Shown here: piece after piece, positions 51,068 through 64,000 of the stretch
Numbering within the stretch: position 1 is the stretch's first letter
Layout: every line of letters starts with the position of its first letter
The notes under the pieces: model-generated
Seen by the model: only the letters and a program-made list of their open reading frames with translations
Databases searched by the model: none
Told to the model about the DNA's origin: nothing
Origin: Wenyingzhuangia heitensis
GTDB lineage: Bacteria; Bacteroidota; Bacteroidia; Flavobacteriales; Flavobacteriaceae
NCBI RefSeq assembly: GCF_011762155.1
Contig: NZ_JAASQL010000003.1
Span: 62,001 to 126,000 of the forward strand
Direction: 5' to 3'
Length of the DNA: 64,000 nt
Translations under genes and position numbers: made by a program

Positions 51068-51547
51068 ATGGAAAAAGCAATAGTATTATATGGTGCCGAT
51101 TGGTGTCCGGATTGCAGAAGAGCTAAATCTTACCTAGACAGCAACAATATCAACTATCAATTTATTGATGTAGATTTAGACAAAGAAGCTACAGAAAAAG
51201 TAGAAGCTATTAATAATGGAAAGCGAATTATCCCTACTGTAATCATTAACAAAAACACCTATACCAACCCAAATAATGCTGTGTTAGCAAGTGTATTAGG
51301 TATCAACCCGCAAGGACAGTTAATTTTATTTGGTGCCGATTGGTGTCCAGACTGTAGAAGAGCTAAAAGTTATTTAGATGACAATTTAATCAACTATCAA
51401 TTTATTGATGTAGACCAACACGAATGGGCTACCGATCAAGTAGAAGCTATTAATAACGGAAAAAGAATTATACCTACAATTATTTTAAACGGAACCCCAT
51501 ATACCAACCCAAACAACGCTAAACTTAAAGAGTTATTAAATATTGAT
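51068..51547 (+). repeat. 240-bp tandem in-frame duplication encoding two Grx domains
   Basis: Two 240-bp units encode the two domains. Blocks such as GGTGCCGATTGGTGTCC and CAACTATCAATTTATTGATG are identical between units, whereas other parts differ at synonymous and non-synonymous sites. The high similarity points to a fairly recent duplication or ongoing gene conversion. Confidence 0.85.
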
Positions 51548-52477
51548 GCTGACAAAGAACACAAAGTATATGATAGCATTATTATTGGAGGAGGTGCTGC
51601 TGGTTTAACAACAGCTATTTATGCACAAAGAGACCGTTTTAATACTTTAATTTTAGAAAGAAAAAATATTGGTGGAAATGCTTTTTTAACCGAAAAGATT
51701 GAGAACTACCCTGGTTTTAATGAAATTTCTGGCCCCAAGCTTATGGAGCGTATGGAAAACCAAGCCAAAACTTATGGTGCTGAAATTAAAACAGGAGAAG
51801 AAGTTTCTAACATAGAAAAAAAAGGAGAATTGTTTGAGATCACTACCATTATGGGAACTTACTTAGCAAAAACCGTTGTACTATCTACAGGATCTACCTA
51901 TAGAAAACTAGGAATCCCTAATGAAAGTGACCTAATTGGTTCTGGAGTTCACTTTTGTGCTACTTGCGATGGTGCCTTTTATAGAAACAAAGAAGTCGTT
52001 GTTATTGGAGGCGGAAATTCTGCTTTAGAAGAAGGTATCTTTTTAGCTGGTTTTTGTAAAAAAGTAAAAATAATCAATAGATCAGCTCAATTTAAAGCTT
52101 CTAAAACTTATATAGAAAAATTAGAAACAATAGATAATATTGAAATTTATACAGACAACACTCCTGTGAAATTCACCAAAAATGATAAAAATTTATTTAA
52201 AGGAATTGTTGTAAAAGATAATACTACTAAAGAAGAAAAAGAAATTACAGCAGATGGTGCTTTTATTTTTGTGGGATTAATACCCAACACCAAAAGCTTT
52301 AAAGAAATTGTAAATCTAAACGAAAAAGGATTTATCACTACCCAAAACCTAGCAGAAACCTCTGTAAAAGGAATTTTTGCAGCTGGTGATTGTAGAGAAG
52401 GTGCCATTGCACAAGTAGCAGCTGCTACAGGAGAAGGTGTTTTGGCAAGTTATGGAATTAGAGATTTTTTGAAATAA
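51068..52477 (+). CDS. Fusion of two tandem glutaredoxin domains with thioredoxin reductase
   Basis: A 469-residue protein. Residues 1-80 and 81-160 are two glutaredoxin/mycoredoxin-like domains with identical active sites GADWCPDC (Cys13/Cys16 and Cys93/Cys96) and the cis-proline regions RIIPT; the period is exactly 80 residues. From about 168 to the end is a complete low-Mr thioredoxin reductase: FAD loop GGGAAG (174-179), redox pair CATC (297-300), NADPH loop GGGNSA (314-319) and GDCREG at the end. The enzyme could channel electrons from NADPH to its own Grx domains. No separate trx gene is adjacent. Ends at a bidirectional terminator. Confidence 0.93.
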   Translation: MEKAIVLYGADWCPDCRRAKSYLDSNNINYQFIDVDLDKEATEKVEAINNGKRIIPTVIINKNTYTNPNNAVLASVLGINPQGQLILFGADWCPDCRRAKSYLDDNLINYQFIDVDQHEWATDQVEAINNGKRIIPTIILNGTPYTNPNNAKLKELLNIDADKEHKVYDSIIIGGGAAGLTTAIYAQRDRFNTLILERKNIGGNAFLTEKIENYPGFNEISGPKLMERMENQAKTYGAEIKTGEEVSNIEKKGELFEITTIMGTYLAKTVVLSTGSTYRKLGIPNESDLIGSGVHFCATCDGAFYRNKEVVVIGGGNSALEEGIFLAGFCKKVKIINRSAQFKASKTYIEKLETIDNIEIYTDNTPVKFTKNDKNLFKGIVVKDNTTKEEKEITADGAFIFVGLIPNTKSFKEIVNLNEKGFITTQNLAETSVKGIFAAGDCREGAIAQVAAATGEGVLASYGIRDFLK

Positions 52478-52543: not shown

Positions 52544-53725
52544 TTATAAACTTTTTAAATCTTTTCCCAATAACTTAATAGCAATCTTATTTAACTCTTC
52601 AAACTTACCTTCAAAATGATAAGTTTTGTGAATATGTTTGATTGATGCTCCTGGAGTTAACTCTTTTGCACTTGAGGATGATTCTAACTCATAAAATGGC
52701 CCTAATTGGTCTCCATTATCTAAAGGTCCATCATTGTAAGAATTTACTACATCTCCCTTATAAGGTTCATCTTGCAATTTCCAAATAGAATTTACATACG
52801 TAGAATCTCCCTTAAATGTATAATTTACAATTGTCAACATTTTAGTATCTGCATCATAACTACCTACATAAGGTATAATATTACGTGGTGACAATCCTAA
52901 TTTAAATCTTGCCGTTCCGTTACCTTTATAAGTTACATGTTTGTCCGTTTTTGTCAACCTGCCAGGAGGCACTTCTCCAAAATAGGATGTATTTAAAACC
53001 AATTCATTTTTATAGGGTAAAATTACCGTTGTGTTGTCTGATGGCATAAACATTCCTAAAATCCAAACAGAAAGTAACCCCGTATCTTTTGACCAAGCCT
53101 CTTCCCCTGTATTTATAATTTCATTAAAAGATTGATATCCTACACAATCTACATCATCTGAAAGATCAATTTCTAAATCTGTTTTAATTTCTTGATTGTT
53201 AAAAATGGTTACTTCTCGATTTACATCAATATCAAAAGCAAAACCTTTGTAATTAACTAACTTCATTTTTTTATGAAACAGCACGCTTTTGTCTGATTGA
53301 TTTACCACATCAAAAGCCTCTGTATCTATTTCTTTAGGTGTGAACCAATTTTCAAAGGTAAAATCTGTATCTTTTTTAAAGAAAATAGAATATTGACCTC
53401 CTTCTGGTCCTATCCAAAATCTATCTTCTCCTCCAAAAACATTGATATGTTTTTCAAAATCTCCAGAAGAAATTAAATCATAATTTACCCAACCATAACT
53501 ATTTCCTTGCTCTCCTTTTGCAGTACTGGTCATCACTCTTCCCTGATAATAAGGAAGCACCATCAACTGGCTCTTTCCTTTGTTTTCGTATAAATGAATT
53601 ACATGCTGATGACTTTCTAAAAATTGTTTATCATATCCATAAGTCCCTTTTTCAACATGACCTTTACAACCTACTACAACAACGGTACTTAAAATCCCAA
53701 CAATCAACCTAAAATAGTTATCCAT
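52544..53725 (-). CDS. DUF6786-like lipoprotein (possible galactose-mutarotase-like fold)
   Basis: A 393-residue lipoprotein: the lipobox is VVVGC with Cys20. The sequence is rich in beta strands and aromatic residues (GGEDRFWIGPEGGQYSIFF, NWFTPKEIDTEAFDVV), with a pattern similar to DUF6786/aldose-epimerase-like proteins seen in Bacteroidota polysaccharide loci. No catalytic residues can be assigned. Its start overlaps the GH117 stop by one base, so it belongs to the same transcript. Role in the PUL unknown. Confidence 0.6.
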   Translation of the reverse strand: MDNYFRLIVGILSTVVVVGCKGHVEKGTYGYDKQFLESHQHVIHLYENKGKSQLMVLPYYQGRVMTSTAKGEQGNSYGWVNYDLISSGDFEKHINVFGGEDRFWIGPEGGQYSIFFKKDTDFTFENWFTPKEIDTEAFDVVNQSDKSVLFHKKMKLVNYKGFAFDIDVNREVTIFNNQEIKTDLEIDLSDDVDCVGYQSFNEIINTGEEAWSKDTGLLSVWILGMFMPSDNTTVILPYKNELVLNTSYFGEVPPGRLTKTDKHVTYKGNGTARFKLGLSPRNIIPYVGSYDADTKMLTIVNYTFKGDSTYVNSIWKLQDEPYKGDVVNSYNDGPLDNGDQLGPFYELESSSSAKELTPGASIKHIHKTYHFEGKFEELNKIAIKLLGKDLKSL

Positions 53726-55038
53726 TATAATTCCTTATTTTTTAATATTTCTGTCTCTTTAGCAATACGCTCTTTTTGACTATTATTTAAACTATGTTCC
53801 AGCAAAAAGTCCATTTCATATCTTAAATGGTGTTTTTTCATTTGCTTGTCATCAACATCTAAACTTAAATCACAATCAAAACGAAGTAAAACCACATGAT
53901 TTCTTTTCCAATCTCCGTGAGGAATATAATAGTGGGAAATTCCCCAAGTAATCCCTCTCCCATCTTTAGTATTTGTAAAAGCATCTGCAACATAAGGCCC
54001 CGCAGCATCCGGCATTAATTCTACGGTAGATGCTATTTTAAAATTCACCCAATCTTTAGCATACTGTACTGTGTTACTTTCGTTTCCATCTCTAATAGAA
54101 AAAGCAGCAACCCCTTCTTTAAAAGGAAATAAAGTGGTCTCATGTCCTGAGTTTATCAAAGGATTTAAAGGATGTTTTGTAAAAGGTCCTAAAGGATTGT
54201 CTGCAATTGCCAAACCATGCATACGTACATTTCCTTTTCCCTTCTCTTTATCTCTTCCAAAATCAGATTTATAATACAAATAAACTTTTCCGTTATGTAT
54301 TAATGGATATGGGTCATGAATAGAATATTGATCCCATTCTCCAGGTGCTCCATTAGGAATTACCTCTTTTTTATAAGCTTTCCAAGGACCATCGGGAGAG
54401 TCTGCATAAGAAACAGCTACCGGACAATTGTCTCCTCCATTAGTTCCTGGTGCAGCACTAAACCCTTGGTAATATAAATAATACTTCCCTTTCCATTTTA
54501 AAATATCTGAAGTGGTTACAGAACGCCAACCTATTTCTGGTTTTTTTGGTCTGGGTATAGCAACTCCTTGCTCCTCCCATGTAAAACCATCTTTAGAAGT
54601 TGCATAGTATATATCTGCTAAATCCCAATCGGCAGAAGGAATTTTATCCGTAGCTGACTCTGCGTTTTTTAATCCTATAGGAGCAGAATCTGTATGTCTA
54701 TGTGTGTACCACATATAATATTTTCCATTCTCAAAAATTACTTTTGATGGATCTCTCCTTGATATTGTTCCATCTCCGTTATTATAATCAAATCCTTTTA
54801 ACTCTGTGTATTTAAATTGTGTGTACAATTCATTCCACTCAGGTCTAACCCCGGTATACATATCATAATTTCTTTCCATAGCAGCACTTAGCTGAATATT
54901 TGGTTTTTCTTCAGGAAAACTATAAGGAAATACTTTATTTTCTTTTAATTCTTTTGAAGTTACTGAACCTGTATCTGAATGTTGTTGACACGAATAAAAA
55001 CCGAAAGCAATCACTAAAAAGGCCATGTATTTTTTCAT
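53725..55038 (-). CDS. GH117-family enzyme (probable alpha-1,3-(3,6-anhydro)-L-galactosidase)
   Basis: A 437-residue lipoprotein (lipobox FYSC, Cys17). The N-terminal helix-turn-helix region YDMYTGVRPEWNELYTQFKY (59-78) and the five-bladed propeller starting RRDPSKVIFENGKYYMWYT are characteristic of GH117. Conserved acidic and histidine residues include Asp96, Asp242 (SIHDPYP) and His299-Glu300 (SGHETT). Known members release 3,6-anhydro-L-galactose from agar oligosaccharides; other clades may act on related galactans. Neighbouring sulfatase supports a red-algal galactan substrate. Seventeen bp after the sulfatase gene. Confidence 0.85.
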   Translation of the reverse strand: MKKYMAFLVIAFGFYSCQQHSDTGSVTSKELKENKVFPYSFPEEKPNIQLSAAMERNYDMYTGVRPEWNELYTQFKYTELKGFDYNNGDGTISRRDPSKVIFENGKYYMWYTHRHTDSAPIGLKNAESATDKIPSADWDLADIYYATSKDGFTWEEQGVAIPRPKKPEIGWRSVTTSDILKWKGKYYLYYQGFSAAPGTNGGDNCPVAVSYADSPDGPWKAYKKEVIPNGAPGEWDQYSIHDPYPLIHNGKVYLYYKSDFGRDKEKGKGNVRMHGLAIADNPLGPFTKHPLNPLINSGHETTLFPFKEGVAAFSIRDGNESNTVQYAKDWVNFKIASTVELMPDAAGPYVADAFTNTKDGRGITWGISHYYIPHGDWKRNHVVLLRFDCDLSLDVDDKQMKKHHLRYEMDFLLEHSLNNSQKERIAKETEILKNKEL

Positions 55039-55054
55039 ATATATTTACTTTTAA

Positions 55055-56497
55055 TTATTTGACAATCGGTTGAGGAATAACGGCTCCACTTTCTTTTAAA
55101 TATTTTTTTAATTTTTTGTGTAGACTATTTGTTAAACGAACTTTTTCGCTCGCTAAATCCTTTTTCTCATAAGGATCATTTACTACATCAAATAATTGTT
55201 TTTTATCATGATGATAGTGATAAATCATTTTATAATTACCTACACGAATGGCACTTGACGGGTAACTACCCTCTCCTTGATAATGAGGGAAATGCCAGTA
55301 CAATGCTTTGTGTTCAAACTTTTCACCTGCAAATAAAGGCACAAAACTTTTTCCATCTATATGTTGTTCTGGTTTTAAAGACAATCCAGCCATTTCTAAT
55401 AATGTAGGATAAAAATCCATACTAGTAACAGGTACATTTGTTTGCTTACCAGGTAAAGAATGTCCAGGCCAATGTATTAAAAGCGGGGTTCTTACGCCTC
55501 CTTCAAAAACAAATGTTTTTCCTCCTTTTAAGGGCTCGTTAGATGTAGGATGTCCATGCATAAAACAAGATCTACCTCCGTTATCTCCTGTAAACACAAT
55601 AATAGTATTATCGTACAAGCCTTTATCTTTTAAGGCTTTAACTAATTTTCCTATATTTTTATCTAAGGTAAATAACTCTCCTGCATACTCCGCATCGTCT
55701 TGACGTGCTTTTATTTTTTTATGAGCATAGTTATAATCTTTCCAAAAAGGACCATTTTCTGGTATTCTATTTGCTTTTTTTTCAAATTTAGTTCTCAACT
55801 CAAGAGTTGTTTCTATAGGTGCATGCATTGCAAAATGGGCTAAATGTAGGTAAAAAGGTTTCTCTCGTTTTTTTGAGACAAAATCTATTGCTTCATCTGT
55901 TAACAAATCTGTATAATTATCTCCTTCTTTTGCATTTGGAAAATACTCTGGATGATCCCAAAAAGGATAAAACATCCTACATACATTTGACTCAATTACG
56001 GCTTTTTGAGAATCGTATCCATGATTTAAAGGTCCTCCAGTAATTTTAAAACTTCCCATATGCCATTTTCCCATAAATGAAGTCTCATAACCTGCTTCTT
56101 GAAAAGCTTCTCCAATCGTAACATCTTTTTCTTCTATTCCTTGAACCAACGGTTTTGGACAAAAAACAGTTGCCTTTTCTCCTTTTTTTGTAAAAGGTAT
56201 TTTTAAACCCGGTAACCACTGAGTAATACCATGTCTTGCGGGGTTTTTTCCTGTAAGAATACTTGTTCTGGTTGGAGAACACATAGGACTTGGAGTGTAA
56301 CAATTATCAAAACGCATCCACTCCTTAGAAAGTTTATTTATTTCTGGAGTTTCGTAAAAACTACTTCCGTTATAACCAACATCCATCCAACCAAAATCAT
56401 CAATTAAAATAAATACCACATTTGGTTTAGATTTATTTTGAGATTGGCTAATAAATCCTTGCATGATAAGTGCTATATATACAATTACTTTTTTCAT
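55055..56497 (-). CDS. S1-family (formylglycine-dependent) sulfatase
   Basis: A 480-residue secreted sulfatase. A signal peptide (MKKVIVYIALIMQGFISQSQ) precedes NVVFILIDDFGWMDVGYNG with the metal-binding Asp33-Asp34; the active-site motif CSPTR (Cys73-Arg77) needs oxidation of Cys73 to formylglycine by a maturation enzyme (not in the window). GKWHMG, FTGDNGGR and the C-terminal subdomain are standard. Sulfatases of this type clip sulfate esters from algal glycans. In the GH117 transcript. Confidence 0.95.
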   Translation of the reverse strand: MKKVIVYIALIMQGFISQSQNKSKPNVVFILIDDFGWMDVGYNGSSFYETPEINKLSKEWMRFDNCYTPSPMCSPTRTSILTGKNPARHGITQWLPGLKIPFTKKGEKATVFCPKPLVQGIEEKDVTIGEAFQEAGYETSFMGKWHMGSFKITGGPLNHGYDSQKAVIESNVCRMFYPFWDHPEYFPNAKEGDNYTDLLTDEAIDFVSKKREKPFYLHLAHFAMHAPIETTLELRTKFEKKANRIPENGPFWKDYNYAHKKIKARQDDAEYAGELFTLDKNIGKLVKALKDKGLYDNTIIVFTGDNGGRSCFMHGHPTSNEPLKGGKTFVFEGGVRTPLLIHWPGHSLPGKQTNVPVTSMDFYPTLLEMAGLSLKPEQHIDGKSFVPLFAGEKFEHKALYWHFPHYQGEGSYPSSAIRVGNYKMIYHYHHDKKQLFDVVNDPYEKKDLASEKVRLTNSLHKKLKKYLKESGAVIPQPIVK

Positions 56498-56510
56498 TAT
56501 TTTTTAAATT

Positions 56511-57491
56511 TTATTCCCAAAAAAGTTTATCAATACTAACCCCATAACCTGGATACATAACACTTGAAATATACCATTGTCCATCTTCTCCTTTAAAAAT
56601 TTCAGGAGCATGTGCATTTAAAACGGTTATTTCCTTTTCTTTATCCGTTCCAAAATCCATTAAGTCGTCAGAAGCAAATACATGCGCTTTGTGTGTGTAA
56701 GCTCCTAGTAATTCTATACGATCCCAAGAACCCTTTTCCCATGCACATACAAAAAGATAAAAAGAATTATTATGAAATATTACCGATGGAGATTCTGGAT
56801 CAAAATCATTAGTTACTAAAATTGTTTTTGCTTCAGACCAATTTAGTAAGTCTTTTGAAGTTCTCATTCGAACACATTTTTCTGAACAATAGGTCATGTA
56901 ATAAATACCTTCATGAAGTATTAAATTTGGATCTCTTGCTCCTTTTTCCTCTTCGAACAAGGTTCCTTTTGGTGTCCAATTATTTAAATCTGGAGATGTT
57001 GCTAATCGTATAGGACTGTGTCCATACACCATGTGGTACAGATTGTCTTTTTTTACGATATAAGGCGCGTGATTTGCGGTAATCTCTCCCGGACGTTCTT
57101 TAGGTGGAAGAATTTTAGGTAAATCTGAATAATGATCTACTTCTACGGTTTCTTTAAAGTTATCGCTTGACGATATTGCATGAAAAGAAGCAAATTCACC
57201 TTGATGAATACCTCCTAATTTAGGATCTGTATAAGGATGTGTAATTCCAATTATATGCCATTTACCATCTGCTGTTTTCACAAAAGTGTGATCGTTAGGA
57301 ATCCATCTTTCATAAAACTGACCTTCTTTAAGTACTTTTGTATCTGGTCCAAAAAACACATCGCCATCTGGTTGATAAATTTCTACATATTTATTTTCTT
57401 GTTTTGGAATTAATACTTTTTTTACTGTTTTACTTTTACATTGAACCAAAAATATTGACAATACAAAAAGTAGTGATAATTTAGTTTTCAT
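56511..57491 (-). CDS. Beta-propeller glycoside hydrolase-like lipoprotein (GH43/GH32 clan type)
   Basis: A 326-residue lipoprotein (lipobox LVQC, Cys18). Repeated propeller blades are visible: NDHTFVKTADGKWHIIGI, NHAPYIVKKDNLYHMVYG, ARDPNLILHEGIYYMTYC, DPESPSVIFHNNSFYLFVC and HAPEIFKGEDGQWYISS. The blade-start acidic residues (Asp in NDH and ARDP, Glu in HAPEI) fit the catalytic positions of clan GH-F/J enzymes. Family and linkage are uncertain. Fourteen bp after the sulfatase in the operon order. Confidence 0.7.
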   Translation of the reverse strand: MKTKLSLLFVLSIFLVQCKSKTVKKVLIPKQENKYVEIYQPDGDVFFGPDTKVLKEGQFYERWIPNDHTFVKTADGKWHIIGITHPYTDPKLGGIHQGEFASFHAISSSDNFKETVEVDHYSDLPKILPPKERPGEITANHAPYIVKKDNLYHMVYGHSPIRLATSPDLNNWTPKGTLFEEEKGARDPNLILHEGIYYMTYCSEKCVRMRTSKDLLNWSEAKTILVTNDFDPESPSVIFHNNSFYLFVCAWEKGSWDRIELLGAYTHKAHVFASDDLMDFGTDKEKEITVLNAHAPEIFKGEDGQWYISSVMYPGYGVSIDKLFWE

Positions 57492-57548
57492 CTTATTATT
57501 TTTTAGTTATTTGTTGTGAAATTAGAGCTCCTTTTTTCTTTAAGAATC

Positions 57549-60014
57549 TTATTCTTTCTTATATACAATATCTTTTATTCTAGAAGAAGGTGTAACCGCT
57601 ACATCTTTTACTTTACTATTTATTTGTTTTGCCTCAACAATCGTTTTTTGTGGCGCGTGTAATTTAAAATCAACATCCCAATCCTTCGGCCAAGTAGGTA
57701 AAACGGTTAAATCTTTTCCATCGTTAGAAATAGTTTGCAAACACATTTCTTGTAAAGAAATCATACCAGATGTTCCCCATTCTAAATCTGGCATACAACC
57801 ATATCCTGGTCCGTAAAACACAGGGAAACGTGAAGGTTTCGCTTCTTTCCAAGGATCACCTTGAGCATCATCTAATTTTTTAGAAACATATTCTTTAGCC
57901 TCGTCTGTAAGACCAAGTCGTGCCAAAAACATGGCTTGTTGTCCCCAACCCCACCATTCTTCTTTTTGGGCGTAAATATCTCCTTTCATACCTTTTTGTC
58001 TAAAAGGTTTTAAAACATACTTAATAACACTTTTATCTAAACCATATTTCCAGGTATTTATCCCAACTTCTAAATCAGGCTGGCCAACTGCATATATTCC
58101 ATAAGGAAAAACAGGATATAATTGTGGAATTTCTCTATTTCCCCATCTAAAATTACCTTCCTTATATGGAGCTATGGTTTTATGACCATTTCGAGTTCTA
58201 TGTTCTAAATCGGGTACACGTTGGTTCCAATCTTTAAATTTTTCTTTTTCGACTTTACTTACCCATTTATCTGGTAATGAAATAAGCGCTTCTAGGTTTT
58301 TATGCAATCCTGCCACATTTGGTGCTGGATTATCTCCATGATGATAAGACTCAGTAGCTGGCATATTATGCATTACCAATTTTCCATCTGGTCCCCACTC
58401 TTTTCCATTTCTTTTTTTCTGCAACATTTTTTGGTATTCGAATTCAAAAACGACAACTCCTTTCATAAATGGAATATATTCTGATATATCTGCTCCTGTA
58501 AAACGATACCATTCATGCAACATATAAGCAAATTCTATTTGCGAATGATAATAATACGTATGCCTACCTGTAGTACCAATTTCATCTGTAGGTTTTCGCT
58601 TTCCAAGAGGCATTTCCCAACTGTAAGCTTGACCAAGAGGTAAACCGCCTGTTCCTATTTGTTCGCCAAAAGCACAACCTTCAACTCCCCAAGTGACTTC
58701 ACTTCTTAGTTTAGCATTGATGAAATTGTTTTTAAAATAATTGAATTGCGGACGTAATTCTTCAAAATCACCCGATTTTAAAAACGACCAATGTATCAAC
58801 CTTTGGTTCATACCTGTCCAAGCTCCCCATTTTCTATAATCGGCATTAAAATAGGATGGTGTGGTATTCTTTTCTTTTTGAATATACACAGGATCGAACT
58901 GAAAAAAACCACCACTAAAATGATTCGGTAATTCACCATAAGGATTACAACCTAACACATATCGCATTAGTTGATAATTTCTTCCAATTCTCCAGCCTAA
59001 ATCATTTTCGCCCTTGCCTTTATTAATAACAATATGACTTCTGTCCCAGAAATTCTCCCACCACTTTACACTCTTTTTCCAAGCATTTTTAGAAGGATTG
59101 TCTACTGTTTTATAAAGATTTTCTTTCCATGTTTTATCACTTTCAATTTGCTCTGTATGCAATGCTATTTTAATAGTATGCTTTTTAGATTTTTTGAGAC
59201 TCTCTAATTGCCAACCTTTATAGGGAGTACCTGCATATATTCCTTCTGTACCTTCAGATTGTTTTAAATTATCACCATACATAACCCCTCCAAATATTCT
59301 GTTTTTGGTTGGGTGATTAAATTGATCTTTTACACTGCTTAACTTTTGAAGTTTTACCGATTTATCAAAAATCCTGTCGTCTCCATTTTGATGATAGAAC
59401 ACCACCTTGTTCTTATCTTCGTGAAATATCTTGTCCGGGTAAGCAAATACATCACCTTTGTATTTAGCATAACCCCAACAAGCAAACCTAGAGCCGCCTC
59501 CGCCTGAAATTGGAATGGGCAGTTTTTCATTCCTCCAAGATTCAAAAGTCGCCGAAATTCTCGACGCTTTATCACTATCCATATCCACATGAATTACAGG
59601 TTTTAAAACCTCTGTCCAAATACGGATATTCACCGTATTTTCAGGTGTTTTACCTTTTATAATTATAGAACCTGTTTTAAGGTCTAATGTTTGTTCAAAT
59701 TCAACATCACTTCCATTATTAGAAAAAGGACTGGGATCCATTTTTATACGAACACGTCCATTTTTTCGCAACTGATCGTTCTCATCCAAATTTCCGCTAC
59801 GGTCAATATAAAAAAGTAAATCTCCGCTTTCTACCCAAACATTCATTCCTAAATCTCCACCTCCACAAGGCATAGATTCACTTGAGTTTTTACTTTGGCT
59901 ATTCCATACCACATTGTACTCATCAAGCCAATCTATCTGCTTATTTTGAGCAAAGGCTGAAAACGAAAACAGTAAAAAGGTTACGTAATAAATTACGTTT
60001 TTTAAAATATTCAT
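57549..60014 (-). CDS. DUF5703-containing (alpha/alpha)6-type putative glycoside hydrolase
   Basis: An 821-residue secreted protein. A signal peptide (residues 1-22) is followed by the DUF5703 N-terminal beta-domain (WNSQSKNSSESMPCGGGDLGMNVWVESGDLLFYID), then a helical region with repeated W/Y-rich segments (NYQLMRYVLGCNPYGELPNHFSGGFFQF, WGAWTGMNQRLIHWS, WGVEGCAFGEQIGTGG) and a short C-terminal domain. The overall layout resembles GH95/GH65-type enzymes, but the catalytic residues are not established. Commonly found in algal or plant polysaccharide loci. Confidence 0.7.
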   Translation of the reverse strand: MNILKNVIYYVTFLLFSFSAFAQNKQIDWLDEYNVVWNSQSKNSSESMPCGGGDLGMNVWVESGDLLFYIDRSGNLDENDQLRKNGRVRIKMDPSPFSNNGSDVEFEQTLDLKTGSIIIKGKTPENTVNIRIWTEVLKPVIHVDMDSDKASRISATFESWRNEKLPIPISGGGGSRFACWGYAKYKGDVFAYPDKIFHEDKNKVVFYHQNGDDRIFDKSVKLQKLSSVKDQFNHPTKNRIFGGVMYGDNLKQSEGTEGIYAGTPYKGWQLESLKKSKKHTIKIALHTEQIESDKTWKENLYKTVDNPSKNAWKKSVKWWENFWDRSHIVINKGKGENDLGWRIGRNYQLMRYVLGCNPYGELPNHFSGGFFQFDPVYIQKEKNTTPSYFNADYRKWGAWTGMNQRLIHWSFLKSGDFEELRPQFNYFKNNFINAKLRSEVTWGVEGCAFGEQIGTGGLPLGQAYSWEMPLGKRKPTDEIGTTGRHTYYYHSQIEFAYMLHEWYRFTGADISEYIPFMKGVVVFEFEYQKMLQKKRNGKEWGPDGKLVMHNMPATESYHHGDNPAPNVAGLHKNLEALISLPDKWVSKVEKEKFKDWNQRVPDLEHRTRNGHKTIAPYKEGNFRWGNREIPQLYPVFPYGIYAVGQPDLEVGINTWKYGLDKSVIKYVLKPFRQKGMKGDIYAQKEEWWGWGQQAMFLARLGLTDEAKEYVSKKLDDAQGDPWKEAKPSRFPVFYGPGYGCMPDLEWGTSGMISLQEMCLQTISNDGKDLTVLPTWPKDWDVDFKLHAPQKTIVEAKQINSKVKDVAVTPSSRIKDIVYKKE

Positions 60015-60195
60015 ATTACTTATATTTTGCTCATTCTATTATTAATTACTTTTAAAATTATTCATAAGCCACTAAAAACTGCCCAATTTAGAATTCTTGT
60101 CTAAGCGTTATTTTTAACAGTTTTACGGTTGTGGTATGTTTATAATCAGTATATAAATATTTGTTTTCATAATAGATATAATTTTTGAAATTCAT

Positions 60196-61566
60196 TTATT
60201 TAACACGAATTTCTTCAATTTCCCAAGCTCCACTATTCGTATCAGAAATAGGCTGCATAGCAATTTGCATTAGCTTTTCCTTTACTCCTTTAAATTGAGA
60301 TAATTGAATGGTATATGTTTTAAATGCATTATCGTTTGAGCTAATAGGAATACTTACCCATTCTTGTTGCTCCCATTTTATTGGATCGGTCTTCTTCCAA
60401 AAACCTTTCTCAAGATCTCGTGTATACAAGGCCAGTTTCAATTGCTTAGCATTGCTATTATTTTTAATTGAAATAGTGAAATGTGTACACTCTCCCGTAT
60501 CGGTATAAAGCCACGGAGCACTTTCTATAAGTGCATTATTACCTGAAATTTCGCCTTGTATCTTACCATTCTTAAATGAAAGTGAAGTACCATCTAAAGC
60601 TTTCCATCCCATCGTAGAATTTTTAAATTCAAAAGGTCTTCCAGGTGCGGGATACATACTATCATCTTCGGGAATAATGATAGTTTCATCTTTATTGAAA
60701 AATACAGGCTTTAAACTCGCACCACGGTAAAATGCACTAATGTCATGATTTTCTTGTAACACGTATAATTGGTCTTTCCATTCGAAAAAACTGGTATGTC
60801 CACCATCTAAAAACGCACCTTTAAACGTATAGGGACCATATAAATTTTTGGACATGGAGTACCTGCTTCCATACACTAAATAATACCAACCGTTTCGTTT
60901 AAAAAGGGTAGGTTTATCTTCAACTTTTAGACTGTTTCCTTTTTCATCCTGAACAATTATTTTTTGAGGCTTGGTTGATAGCGATTTCATATCCTTCGCC
61001 AAAGTTGCCATGTAATAGGTTCCGGCACCAAAACAAATGGTGTACACATTGTTTTCAATAAATATTTCGGGATCGTATGGATGCCCGGGAATTATATCTT
61101 TGGGAAGTAATGGTTTTCCTAATAAATCTTTGTATTCTCCTGTAATTTCATCGGCAACCATTACGCCTGTATTGATGTTTCGGTTTGAGAAAAACCAATA
61201 ATACTTTCCGTCTCTTTCACACACATCACCTGCCCAACAATTCGGGCTATCGCCAATATATGTATCCTTTGGATAAATATTTCTATGATGTTTCCAGTTT
61301 ACTAAATCATCAGAAGACCATACTTCCCAACGATCCATACGAAAAGAGCCTTTACCATCCCATGATTCATCATGACCACAAATTACATATACTCTATCAT
61401 TTTCAATCCATGCATGTGGGTCGGCCATACCATGTTCGGGAGTTATAACGTCTACCTTTACAGCATTGGGGTTAATACCATAATTGGCATTCTTTTGTTC
61501 TTTTGATGATGAACCACAACTACTTAAGAGTAGCATGCTCGTTAATAAAAAATAGGCTATCTTCAT
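60196..61566 (-). CDS. GH43-like beta-propeller lipoprotein with C-terminal beta-sandwich
   Basis: A 456-residue lipoprotein (lipobox LSSC, Cys17). The propeller runs from about 38 to 290: GMADPHAWIENDRVYVICGHD (first catalytic-position Asp), SPNCWAGDVCERDGKYYWFFSNRN, HPYDPEIFIENNVYTICFGAG (Glu/Asp) and DKPTLFKRNGWYYLVYGSRY. Residues 310-456 form a beta-rich domain (MGWKALDGTSLSFKNGKIQGEI...WEIEEIRV) like a carbohydrate-binding module. Substrate unknown. It is 15 bp after the beta-helix gene; 181 bp separate it from the DUF5703 gene. Confidence 0.75.
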   Translation of the reverse strand: MKIAYFLLTSMLLLSSCGSSSKEQKNANYGINPNAVKVDVITPEHGMADPHAWIENDRVYVICGHDESWDGKGSFRMDRWEVWSSDDLVNWKHHRNIYPKDTYIGDSPNCWAGDVCERDGKYYWFFSNRNINTGVMVADEITGEYKDLLGKPLLPKDIIPGHPYDPEIFIENNVYTICFGAGTYYMATLAKDMKSLSTKPQKIIVQDEKGNSLKVEDKPTLFKRNGWYYLVYGSRYSMSKNLYGPYTFKGAFLDGGHTSFFEWKDQLYVLQENHDISAFYRGASLKPVFFNKDETIIIPEDDSMYPAPGRPFEFKNSTMGWKALDGTSLSFKNGKIQGEISGNNALIESAPWLYTDTGECTHFTISIKNNSNAKQLKLALYTRDLEKGFWKKTDPIKWEQQEWVSIPISSNDNAFKTYTIQLSQFKGVKEKLMQIAMQPISDTNSGAWEIEEIRVK

Positions 61567-61581
61567 TTCAGTAAAATCAAT

Positions 61582-62973
61582 TTATTCTTCTATTATTATT
61601 GGTTTCTTTATTCTAATCGGAGGCAAGTCAAAATGCACCTTTTTAATATCTATATTCTTTTTGGTGATGTTTTGTCCAGCTTTAATGAGCACATCACCAC
61701 AACCTTCATCGTGTCCGCCTAAACTTATTTTTTTTGATGTAGTAGTTCCTCCAAGAAATTGGTTTAAAGCAACTGTACCATCCTTTTTGGTTCCAATCCG
61801 AATATTTTCTCCCTCTCCAATAGAGAGATATTGCGAGACTTTTTCTGATGCATTAAAAGTATTACCAGCAATATAAATATTACGAGGACCATAAGCATGT
61901 ACATCTCGCTTGCAATCTTTATTGATATTTCCTTCCGTTGCACAAGCTATATTTGCTCTACGCTCGTTACTTCCATGCACATAATAGGTCCAGCTTTTAT
62001 AGGTATCGCTTGGGCGTTGCTGTGTTGCGCGCTTATGTCCTTCAGTACCACTAATGCGTATGTATAAATAGTTTTTGCTTACGGTGTTGGGCATTTGGAA
62101 TGTATTATCATAGATTTCCATATTATGTGTACATTGCTCCAAATGAATTGCCTGACATCCACCACCTGCATTATCTACGATTCCCATAAATTGGTTGTTT
62201 CGAATAATAACATCGGCTGTTTGTACCATGCCTATGTTAAACTTCCTACTTTTTCCAAAAATGCAATTCTGAATAATAGTTCCGTTTAAACTTGTACTCT
62301 CGGTATATCTGCGGCCTGTTCCGTCTCCACTATCTTCCCTGTCATTTCCGTTATCGCTATTTATAGCACATTCGTAGCCTTCTTTAAAAACACAGCCATC
62401 TATCACTACTTTTTTCACACTTGTAATTAGTTCTCCGCCTCTTAAATTAGTATTCCTATTAAAAATTTGAACTGGATAATAATCAATATTAGAAAAAATA
62501 CAATTCTTTAAAACCAAGCCGTCAGTTGCATATGCGCGTTGAGCAGCTATCGCATTCCAAATAGAATTAGTAAATTCAACCTCTTCAAAATGATGTGATT
62601 TGCTTTTGTTAAATCTGAAGATACAATTCCCAAAACTTTTTTGATTATCTCCACCATCAATGGTTAAGTTTGTTATAAAAGCAGCATCTCCTACCGCATC
62701 AATAAACACTCCTCTCTTAGTAGTTAATTTAAGTACAGTTTTACCGATACCGCTCCCTTCTAGGATTAATTTATCGTTTTTTAAAGTGATAGGGTCTGAA
62801 AAATTATACGTTCCAGCAGGAAAGATAATTTTTGTGGTTTTTCCATCTTTCACCCATTTTAAAATATCCGTAGTATTTTTAGGGCTGGCTACTCTTTCCT
62901 GAGCATGAAGTAAAACTGAATTGAAAAGTCCAATAAGAAATAGTATCATTATTTTTATTGTGTCATGTTTCAT
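61582..62973 (-). CDS. Secreted right-handed parallel beta-helix protein (pectate-lyase-like fold)
   Basis: A 463-residue protein with a signal peptide (to about residue 25, LLHAQ). The opening TTKIIFPAGTYNFSDPITLKNDKLILEGSGIGKTVLKL is the usual start of beta-helix carbohydrate enzymes, followed by many coils with N-rich turns (NCIFRFNKSKSHHFEEVEFTNS, IIRNNQFMGIVDNAGGGCQAIHLEQC). No catalytic set could be recognised, so it may be a lyase, hydrolase or binding protein. First gene of the minus-strand PUL operon. Confidence 0.7.
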   Translation of the reverse strand: MKHDTIKIMILFLIGLFNSVLLHAQERVASPKNTTDILKWVKDGKTTKIIFPAGTYNFSDPITLKNDKLILEGSGIGKTVLKLTTKRGVFIDAVGDAAFITNLTIDGGDNQKSFGNCIFRFNKSKSHHFEEVEFTNSIWNAIAAQRAYATDGLVLKNCIFSNIDYYPVQIFNRNTNLRGGELITSVKKVVIDGCVFKEGYECAINSDNGNDREDSGDGTGRRYTESTSLNGTIIQNCIFGKSRKFNIGMVQTADVIIRNNQFMGIVDNAGGGCQAIHLEQCTHNMEIYDNTFQMPNTVSKNYLYIRISGTEGHKRATQQRPSDTYKSWTYYVHGSNERRANIACATEGNINKDCKRDVHAYGPRNIYIAGNTFNASEKVSQYLSIGEGENIRIGTKKDGTVALNQFLGGTTTSKKISLGGHDEGCGDVLIKAGQNITKKNIDIKKVHFDLPPIRIKKPIIIEE

Positions 62974-63316: not shown

Positions 63317-64000
63317 ATGATAAAAACCAATCACAAATACTTATTCCTTGTGATCACGTTACTATTATGCTATTCAGTAAAAACTCACTCTATAAACTCA
63401 CCCTATCCAGATAGCAAAATTTTTAAATCAACTAAAAAAGATTCAACTATTTTAGTACTTGAAAATGCAATTGAAACTAGCTCGAATATAAAAACCAACA
63501 AAAAACACATTCAACTAAAAATTCAATTAATAGAAAGGATGTCTGGTATTGGAGAATACCATAAAGCTTATCAATTATTAAACGAATTAACATCAAACCT
63601 AAAAAATTCTGAATTCACCAATTTAAAAGTGGAATTATTGTCCAAATTATCCATTCTGTATTTGATACTTGACCAAAACAAAAAGGCTAATGATTTATTT
63701 TATTCAAACTTTGACTCCCTATATATTGAAGCCAAGCAAAAAAAAGACAGTATTAAAATTACTAGGAAATTACTTCGTCTCCAAGCCAGTATTGAATCAA
63801 ATGCCAACGAAAATTACTTAAAAGCAGAAAAAGTACTTTTACAAAGTATTGCAATTAACAGTTACAACAAGCAAGATTCTTTAAGCGGTGATTATTGCAA
63901 ATTGTACTTAGGTGAACTTTACACTAAAATGTATCTTTTTGATAAAGCTGAAACTCAGTTTTTGGAAATAGAAAAAAAATATACAGCTACAAATCAACAC
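63317..64000 (+). CDS. TPR-type exported protein, probable regulator N-terminus (partial)
   Basis: The frame opens at ATG 63317 and continues to the window end (228 codons), so the C-terminus is missing. An N-terminal hydrophobic segment (YLFLVITLLLCYSV) is a signal or membrane anchor. What follows is helical with tetratricopeptide-like pairs (YHKAYQLLNELTSNLKN, YLKAEKVLLQSIAINS, YTKMYLFDKAETQFLEIEKKY). In Bacteroidota such N-termini often belong to membrane-bound regulators ending in an AraC- or LuxR-type helix-turn-helix. Position opposite the PUL supports that, but the DNA-binding part is not visible. Confidence 0.6.
   Translation, partial: MIKTNHKYLFLVITLLLCYSVKTHSINSPYPDSKIFKSTKKDSTILVLENAIETSSNIKTNKKHIQLKIQLIERMSGIGEYHKAYQLLNELTSNLKNSEFTNLKVELLSKLSILYLILDQNKKANDLFYSNFDSLYIEAKQKKDSIKITRKLLRLQASIESNANENYLKAEKVLLQSIAINSYNKQDSLSGDYCKLYLGELYTKMYLFDKAETQFLEIEKKYTATNQH

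Follow-up and report, generated by a model that had tools for sequence, protein, structure and literature searches.

Red-algal agarans are reported to bear sulfate, methoxyl, β-D-xylosyl and 4-O-methyl-α-L-galactosyl groups (PMC7511586), and how marine bacteria clear such sulfate, methyl, xylosyl and methyl-L-galactosyl groups from agar is only partly known. A described system that invites comparison is the locus ZGAL_3628-3640 of Zobellia galactanivorans, in which ZGAL_3629-3638 (GH2, GH28, GH29, S1 and SusCD) are induced by κ- and ι-carrageenan, although the authors assign them to another sulfated galactan, e.g., sulfated agar (PMC5698469). Two Zobellia loci in our comparison set (L012 and L014) combine gene types like those reported there, with GH16, GH28, S1, GH117, DUF6786, a propeller and GH29 in both, and GH2 in L012. 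Here, we analyze a seven-gene cluster from Wenyingzhuangia heitensis, whose genome amounts to 3.67 Mb in 26 contigs. The cluster is contained in a stretch of 64,000 nucleotides (the window, G000:C3:62001-126000). Compared with the gene types reported for ZGAL_3628-3640, it is devoid of GH16, GH2, GH28, GH29 and SusCD. We give about an even chance to the reading that its products act outside the cytoplasm as an exo-acting clean-up module, which would process substituted and sulfated galactans of agar type (agarans or porphyran-like) after endo-enzymes encoded at other loci of the genome have cut them. This reading draws on homologies, predicted folds, linkage and genomic context, from which we infer substrates, reactions, localization and co-expression alike. 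The seven ordered and testable genes encode, among others, a member of a rare GH139 branch whose residue changes are defined, a propeller from a family linked to a single GH117 clade, and a predicted mutarotase-like protein of the DUF6786 type, which is common in GH117-bearing genomes.

As a first-pass annotation of this DNA had stated, positions 52544-62973 of the window are filled exactly by seven consecutive open reading frames (ORFs), all on the minus strand, with intergenic gaps of -1, 16, 13, 57, 181 and 15 bp:

52544..53725, minus strand: DUF6786 lipoprotein with a predicted galactose-mutarotase fold (PF20583, structure model)
53725..55038, minus strand: GH117 protein of 437 aa, overlapping the DUF6786 gene by one base (PDB matches)
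55055..56497, minus strand: S1 sulfatase (PF00884; CSPTR motif at residue 73)
56511..57491, minus strand: 326-aa protein of five-bladed-propeller type (partial PF04616 match)
57549..60014, minus strand: GH139-related protein (DUF5703; 9hyq and 9hmb matches, residue table, tree)
60196..61566, minus strand: GH43 lipoprotein of 456 aa with an extra C-terminal domain (PF04616, 3qed, motifs)
61582..62973, minus strand: right-handed β-helix protein (structure model; no Pfam family)

That seven genes lie on the same strand with short gaps argues for a single module. The annotation had also reported that SusC/SusD, GH16 and GH2 genes are absent from the window, which we could confirm. None of the matches of whole-genome SusD and GH16 searches fall in the window (on contig C3, SusD matches lie solely at 49.5, 176 and 205 kb), and tblastn queries for GH2 (three), GH16 (two) and GH86, GH29, SusC and SusD (one each) returned no window match, while three queries serving as positive controls did match it. 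Since neither the SusD search nor tblastn with SusC and SusD points to such a pair here, the cluster is not a canonical polysaccharide utilization locus (PUL), and the annotation's use of that term in the strict SusCD sense has to be given up. It is a real and mostly interpretable carbohydrate-active enzyme cluster without SusCD, with one rare enzyme branch.

The GH117 protein aligns over its full length with the PDB chains 4u6d (629 bits) and 4u6b (511 bits), and eight GH117-type chains in total match at 191-629 bits, the others, which include 5ta7, 3p2n (202), 4ak5 (196), 4ak6, 4ak7 and 3r4y, scoring 191-210 bits. A grouping outside GH117 was looked for and not seen, in keeping with the original assignment. 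We take 4u6d and 4u6b to be Zg3615 and Zg3597 of Zobellia galactanivorans, the chain labels saying only "conserved hypothetical." The motifs RRDPS at residue 94, IHDPYP at 240 and GHE at 298 contain RRDP, HDP and GHE residues, presumably the catalytic positions of GH117, that align with 4u6d, 4u6b and 5ta7. Judged by sequence, the window protein is nearest to 4u6d, not to the solved anhydro-galactosidases; it resembles 4u6d and 4u6b over their full length and keeps the three motifs, but its gene neighbors differ. In a 79-row tree of GH117 proteins (>150 bits and 330-520 aa), it falls in a seven-row clade with support 99/94, and six of the seven loci of this clade carry the 326-aa propeller. 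Placed on the tree, the propeller label (seven rows in all, that of L056 assigned by hand with the propeller ~22 kb away in its genome) requires three changes versus a shuffled mean of 6.8, none of 500 shuffles being as low, a contrast that near-copies inflate. In L012-L015, which make up four of the six remaining members, a GH16 gene of 544-992 bits lies upstream of GH117. The L014 protein, on which porphyranase likeness was tested, scores 184, 137, 126 and 119 bits against β-porphyranases versus 29-33 bits against β-agarases.

The rest of the genome is consistent with this context. It holds seven GH117 matches above 150 bits (five above 500, including that of the window) and two weak ones. 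Some 22 kb beyond the cluster, C3:147058-162961 (L223) encodes a porphyranase-domain (GH86-type) protein (PF18206, PF18040), GH29, GH2 and GH117, together with RhaT-like transporter, aldose epimerase, enolase-superfamily, aldehyde dehydrogenase, short-chain dehydrogenase/reductase, alcohol dehydrogenase and IclR genes, and resembles the agarose cassette of PMC5849685 and clusters for 3,6-anhydro-L-galactose catabolism. On C5, two GH2, porphyranase-domain, β-helix and GH29 genes surround a GH117 gene, while on C1 two porphyranase-domain proteins lie near another. Across the genome, GH16 has nine matches, SusD 15 and sulfatase 80, although several sulfatase matches may be fragments that belong to the same gene. 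It is because of the porphyranase-domain genes, the L-anhydrogalactose-type catabolic cluster and the porphyranase-like GH16 near clade GH117s that we favor an agar or porphyran type of substrate. The red-algal galactan first proposed from GH117 and sulfatase together thus finds support, more from context than from these two genes alone, and it narrows to the agar/porphyran type, carrageenan being less likely. Dense runs of sulfatase genes were seen at C1:1.49-1.70 Mb and C3:212-269 kb. L220:12778-13599 had been labeled "GH16" by eye, but we withdrew this label because Pfam recognized no family there.

The original gene identities stand for DUF6786, GH117, S1 sulfatase and the β-helix protein. 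As for the DUF5703 protein, it can no longer be counted as an unknown, and four members without firm activity were too many, since it has two solved GH139 relatives. Besides its DUF5703_N Pfam match (E 8.2e-100), it aligns over its full length with 9hyq (498 bits) and 9hmb (185 bits), which are the two structures, BT0984 and SDT91673.1, of a study of GH139, a fucosidase family with 2-O-methyl-L-fucosidase activity (PMC12282258). We take 9hyq as BT0984 because Q411, N412, E561 and W683 fit the chain numbering with an offset of one. The terms DUF5703 and DUF6786 were found in no paper of the literature searched. By sequence, the window protein is a GH139 relative: the proposed base N412, acid E561 and stacking W683 correspond to N403, E555 and W690, invariant in 38 of 38 rows, and W403, N639 and E641 of BT0984 are likewise kept. 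However, Met, Gly and Glu (M/G/E) replace Q411, D723 and N729 (M402 and G739 for the first two), while W162 and W490 are Tyr and Arg. Q411 and D723 are reported to be >98% conserved in GH139 (PMC12282258), and in our tree they are found in 36 and 35 of the 38 rows, respectively. Because these two residues are changed, we speak of a GH139-related branch and reject a transfer of 2-O-methyl-fucosidase activity from BT0984.

Among 28 aligned proteins, and likewise in the 38-row tree, M/G/E is shared with a single other protein, from Pontiella sulfatireligans (61% identity), with which the window protein forms a 100/100 clade. Pontiella aside, the matches listed from 249 genomes of the family and 395 of the phylum show at most 44% identity. 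None of the 28 aligned rows has the full Trp triad of rhamnogalacturonan II enzymes, the Trp columns aligning less surely, and the whole marine GH139 set may differ from BT0984. The M/G/E changes suggest, at the level of sequence, another substrate for this branch. One specific proposal, which we hold to be improbable, is that it is an inverting exo-α-L-galactosidase removing O4-substituted (e.g., 4-O-methyl) or plain α-L-galactosyl stubs from agarans. This proposal stems from Gly at D723, which would open the O4 side (with L-fucose posed as in GH95, its O4 is expected to collide with D723; PMC12282258), from Met at Q411, which would alter the proposed O2-methyl pocket, and from Glu at N729, which resembles the acidic D766 of AfcA from GH95, a family that includes L-galactosidases. 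GH139 shows no clear enrichment in GH117 genomes (8 of 46, own included and Zobellia uliginosa DSM 2061 entered twice, versus 20 of 249 family genomes) and was dropped as a marker of them. The Pontiella locus has sulfatases, with no GH117 in the stretch read. It shares a family of ~800-aa proteins with three Zobellia GH117 loci; the members are L171:10209-12614 (801 aa, Pontiella), L167:14479-16959 and proteins at the right ends of L012 and L014, and the L171 member has no Pfam match.

The sulfatase (PF00884, E 2.5e-60) has a formylglycine-type CSPTR motif at residue 73, and its top two among the solved chains listed are 6ust (333 bits) and 9fo1 (330 bits), both classed S1_16, the latter being the κ-carrageenan sulfatase AMOR_S1_16A (PMC11760155). 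On sequence grounds it is an S1 enzyme nearest to S1_16. It keeps the Cys motif, the metal ligands, Trp79 and His125 of these chains, but of the three residues near the sugar, Trp79, His125 and His149, the last is replaced by Val, and E270, N369 and Q370 of 9fo1 are also missing (alignment read by eye). Because these four residues are replaced, the sugar pocket differs from that of the κ-carrageenan enzyme. A scan of 68 loci, all fetched around GH117, gave seven with a relative scoring more than 220 bits; in six of them no more than 155 bp separate it from GH117, and this adjacency supports the clean-up module.

The two proteins first described together as GH43-like propellers are not equivalent. 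The 456-aa protein, which matches PF04616 (E 8.1e-26, 91.5 bits, profile 11-200 of 288) and 3qed (89 bits) and has the Asp, Asp and Glu motifs MADP at 47, YDPE at 164 and VED at 215, is by these sequence matches a GH43. In contrast, the 326-aa protein has a partial PF04616 match (E 3.5e-13, 50 bits, above the cut-off; best stretch profile 11-137 of 288), and its profile reaches at best 39 bits against solved chains, GH130 and GH43 mixed, which makes it a propeller that is not clearly GH43. Its D67, D187, E233 and E297 are invariant in 13 sequences, and full-length relatives (E <1e-140) occur in ten other distinct genomes of the 46 searched, G001 and G284 being treated as one. The gene is found with the window's GH117 clade in five other loci, and it is on clade and locus that the link between the two families rests.

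The DUF6786 protein (PF20583, E 6.8e-155) yielded a model with a predicted local distance difference test score (pLDDT) of 92.7, for which Foldseek and VIA-align ranked entries of the aldose epimerase/mutarotase kind highest (best Z 22.3, root-mean-square deviation 4.3, 261 aligned). It is therefore predicted to have a galactose-mutarotase fold, a statement of fold only, and its function is possibly to interconvert anomers of a released sugar or to bind it. In contrast to galactose mutarotases and aldose 1-epimerases, with which it shares ~7-15% identity in matched rows, it has a lipoprotein signal, and the canonical acid His was not recognized by eye at the matching motif. Its invariant residues are E346, E348, H364 and H370, as positions of the sequence alignment rather than of the structure. 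Searched against the PDB, neither its sequence nor that of the β-helix protein gave a match up to E 10. The family occurs in 32 of 44 GH117-locus genomes, in 29 of the 249 family genomes (both counts include the genome studied here) and in none of 14 controls, the contrast with the 249 being rough, since GH117 was the criterion for selecting the 44, which come from several phyla. A GH117/GH43-like protein (112-118 bits) lies within 3 kb in four of 20 DUF6786 neighborhoods (L228, L230, L233 and L234). DUF6786 is not tied to GH117, because most of its less similar members sit among genes that, by eye, are unrelated to glycans. In Lutibacter oricola and L. citreus (L239 and L240), the DUF6786 gene is found between a GH2-like gene and corrinoid-methyltransferase-like genes (by eye), a possible link to methylated sugars.

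The β-helix protein, for which Pfam gave no family, was modeled with a pLDDT of 77.3. Enzymes and adhesins are tied at Z 26-32, and because so many fold families tie (adhesins, lyases, epimerases, fructotransferases, phage tailspikes and glycosidases), we assign it no activity. Close relatives are in Zobellia uliginosa DSM 2061 (68% identity), Saccharicrinis aurantiacus (67% and 64%) and the C5 contig of its own genome (47%), and strong matches occur in two of 249 family genomes, own included. In Z. uliginosa DSM 2061, the gene shares a stretch of DNA with genes for GH117, a GH29-type protein, a sulfatase, the propeller and GH16. The 47% paralogue (G000:C5:73903-75747, L169) is near a sulfatase gene and uronate-catabolism/TRAP-like genes (by eye).

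If the cluster is a clean-up module for agar-type galactans, porphyranase/agarase-type enzymes would produce oligosaccharides that are imported via a SusCD pair encoded elsewhere. The sulfatase would then take off a galactose sulfate, the GH139-related enzyme a terminal α-L-galactose-type sugar, possibly methylated, GH43 a stub such as xylose, and GH117 a terminal α-1,3-linked (anhydro-)L-galactose. The DUF6786 lipoprotein, with its predicted mutarotase-like fold, may interconvert anomers of the released sugar or bind it, and the 326-aa propeller and the β-helix protein would be further carbohydrate-active proteins. A sulfatase, a GH43, a GH139-like exo-enzyme and a GH117 would fit the substituents of red-algal agarans.

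Several observations weigh against this assignment. The cluster has neither an endo-enzyme nor SusCD, and its GH139 relative belongs to a fucosidase family. GH117 by itself is not diagnostic of red-algal galactan, since a Zobellia GH117, zgal_205, is reported to lie in PUL3, a putative locus for fucose polymers (PMC9296495), and no activity on agarose is reported for Bacteroides uniformis GH117A (PMC5849685). Two clade members, L016 and L175, have no GH16 at E 1e-3 within the fetched DNA, and porphyranase-like GH16 is found in 17 of 78 loci and thus outside the clade too, four of these loci outside both Zobellia and the window clade scoring 444-517 bits. Moreover, conservation does not extend to the complete module: the sulfatase, GH43 and GH139-like genes are without close partners in the nine non-Pontiella comparison loci.

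It is unlikely, though the likeliest of the alternatives, that the cluster attacks a brown-algal fucose-containing sulfated polysaccharide with a GH139-like fucosidase, the sulfatase, GH43 and a GH117 of other specificity. The PUL3 membership of zgal_205, the reported fucosidase activity of GH139, the recurrence of GH29-type genes in related loci and the 80 sulfatase matches in the genome would all suit such a substrate, whereas GH16 genes of porphyranase-like type beside GH117 in four of the six clade members, together with the porphyranase-domain and anhydrogalactose-type genes found elsewhere in the genome, point back to agar-type galactans. We regard as rather improbable that the seven genes are neighbors recruited for different glycans. 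A 181-bp gap divides the array, and when the window was clustered with ten further loci at 38% identity, the sulfatase and GH43 found no partner and the GH139-like gene a single one; however, the single strand and short gaps, the GH117/DUF6786 adjacency repeated in two Zobellia loci and the linkage of the 326-aa gene with the GH117 clade in five other loci argue for one pathway. That the target is carrageenan, or a hybrid galactan from carrageenophytes, is very unlikely, for although the carrageenan-induced ZGAL_3629-3638 resemble L012 and L014 in gene types and 9fo1, which ranks second among the sulfatase matches, is a κ-carrageenan sulfatase, the ZGAL genes are assigned elsewhere by their authors, the sulfatase of the cluster lacks E270, N369, Q370 and H149 of 9fo1, and GH117 activity in the cited literature is on L-anhydrogalactose, so that carrageenan as first-choice substrate was ranked below the agar type.

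To the right of the cluster, a single divergent gene begins within the window:

63317..64000, running on to G000:C3:126927, plus strand: start of a tetratricopeptide repeat (TPR) / weak LuxR-type helix-turn-helix gene (Pfam TPR, sub-threshold GerE)

By its position only, this gene is a candidate regulator of the cluster. As it is followed by genes that look like housekeeping genes by eye, the cluster does not extend beyond 64000. A Bacteroidetes promoter pattern is absent from the three gaps tested and has nine matches across the window, both strands counted. On the other side of the cluster, a single plus-strand ORF at 51068-52477 appears by eye to combine two near-identical glutaredoxin-like repeats with a thioredoxin-reductase-like part.

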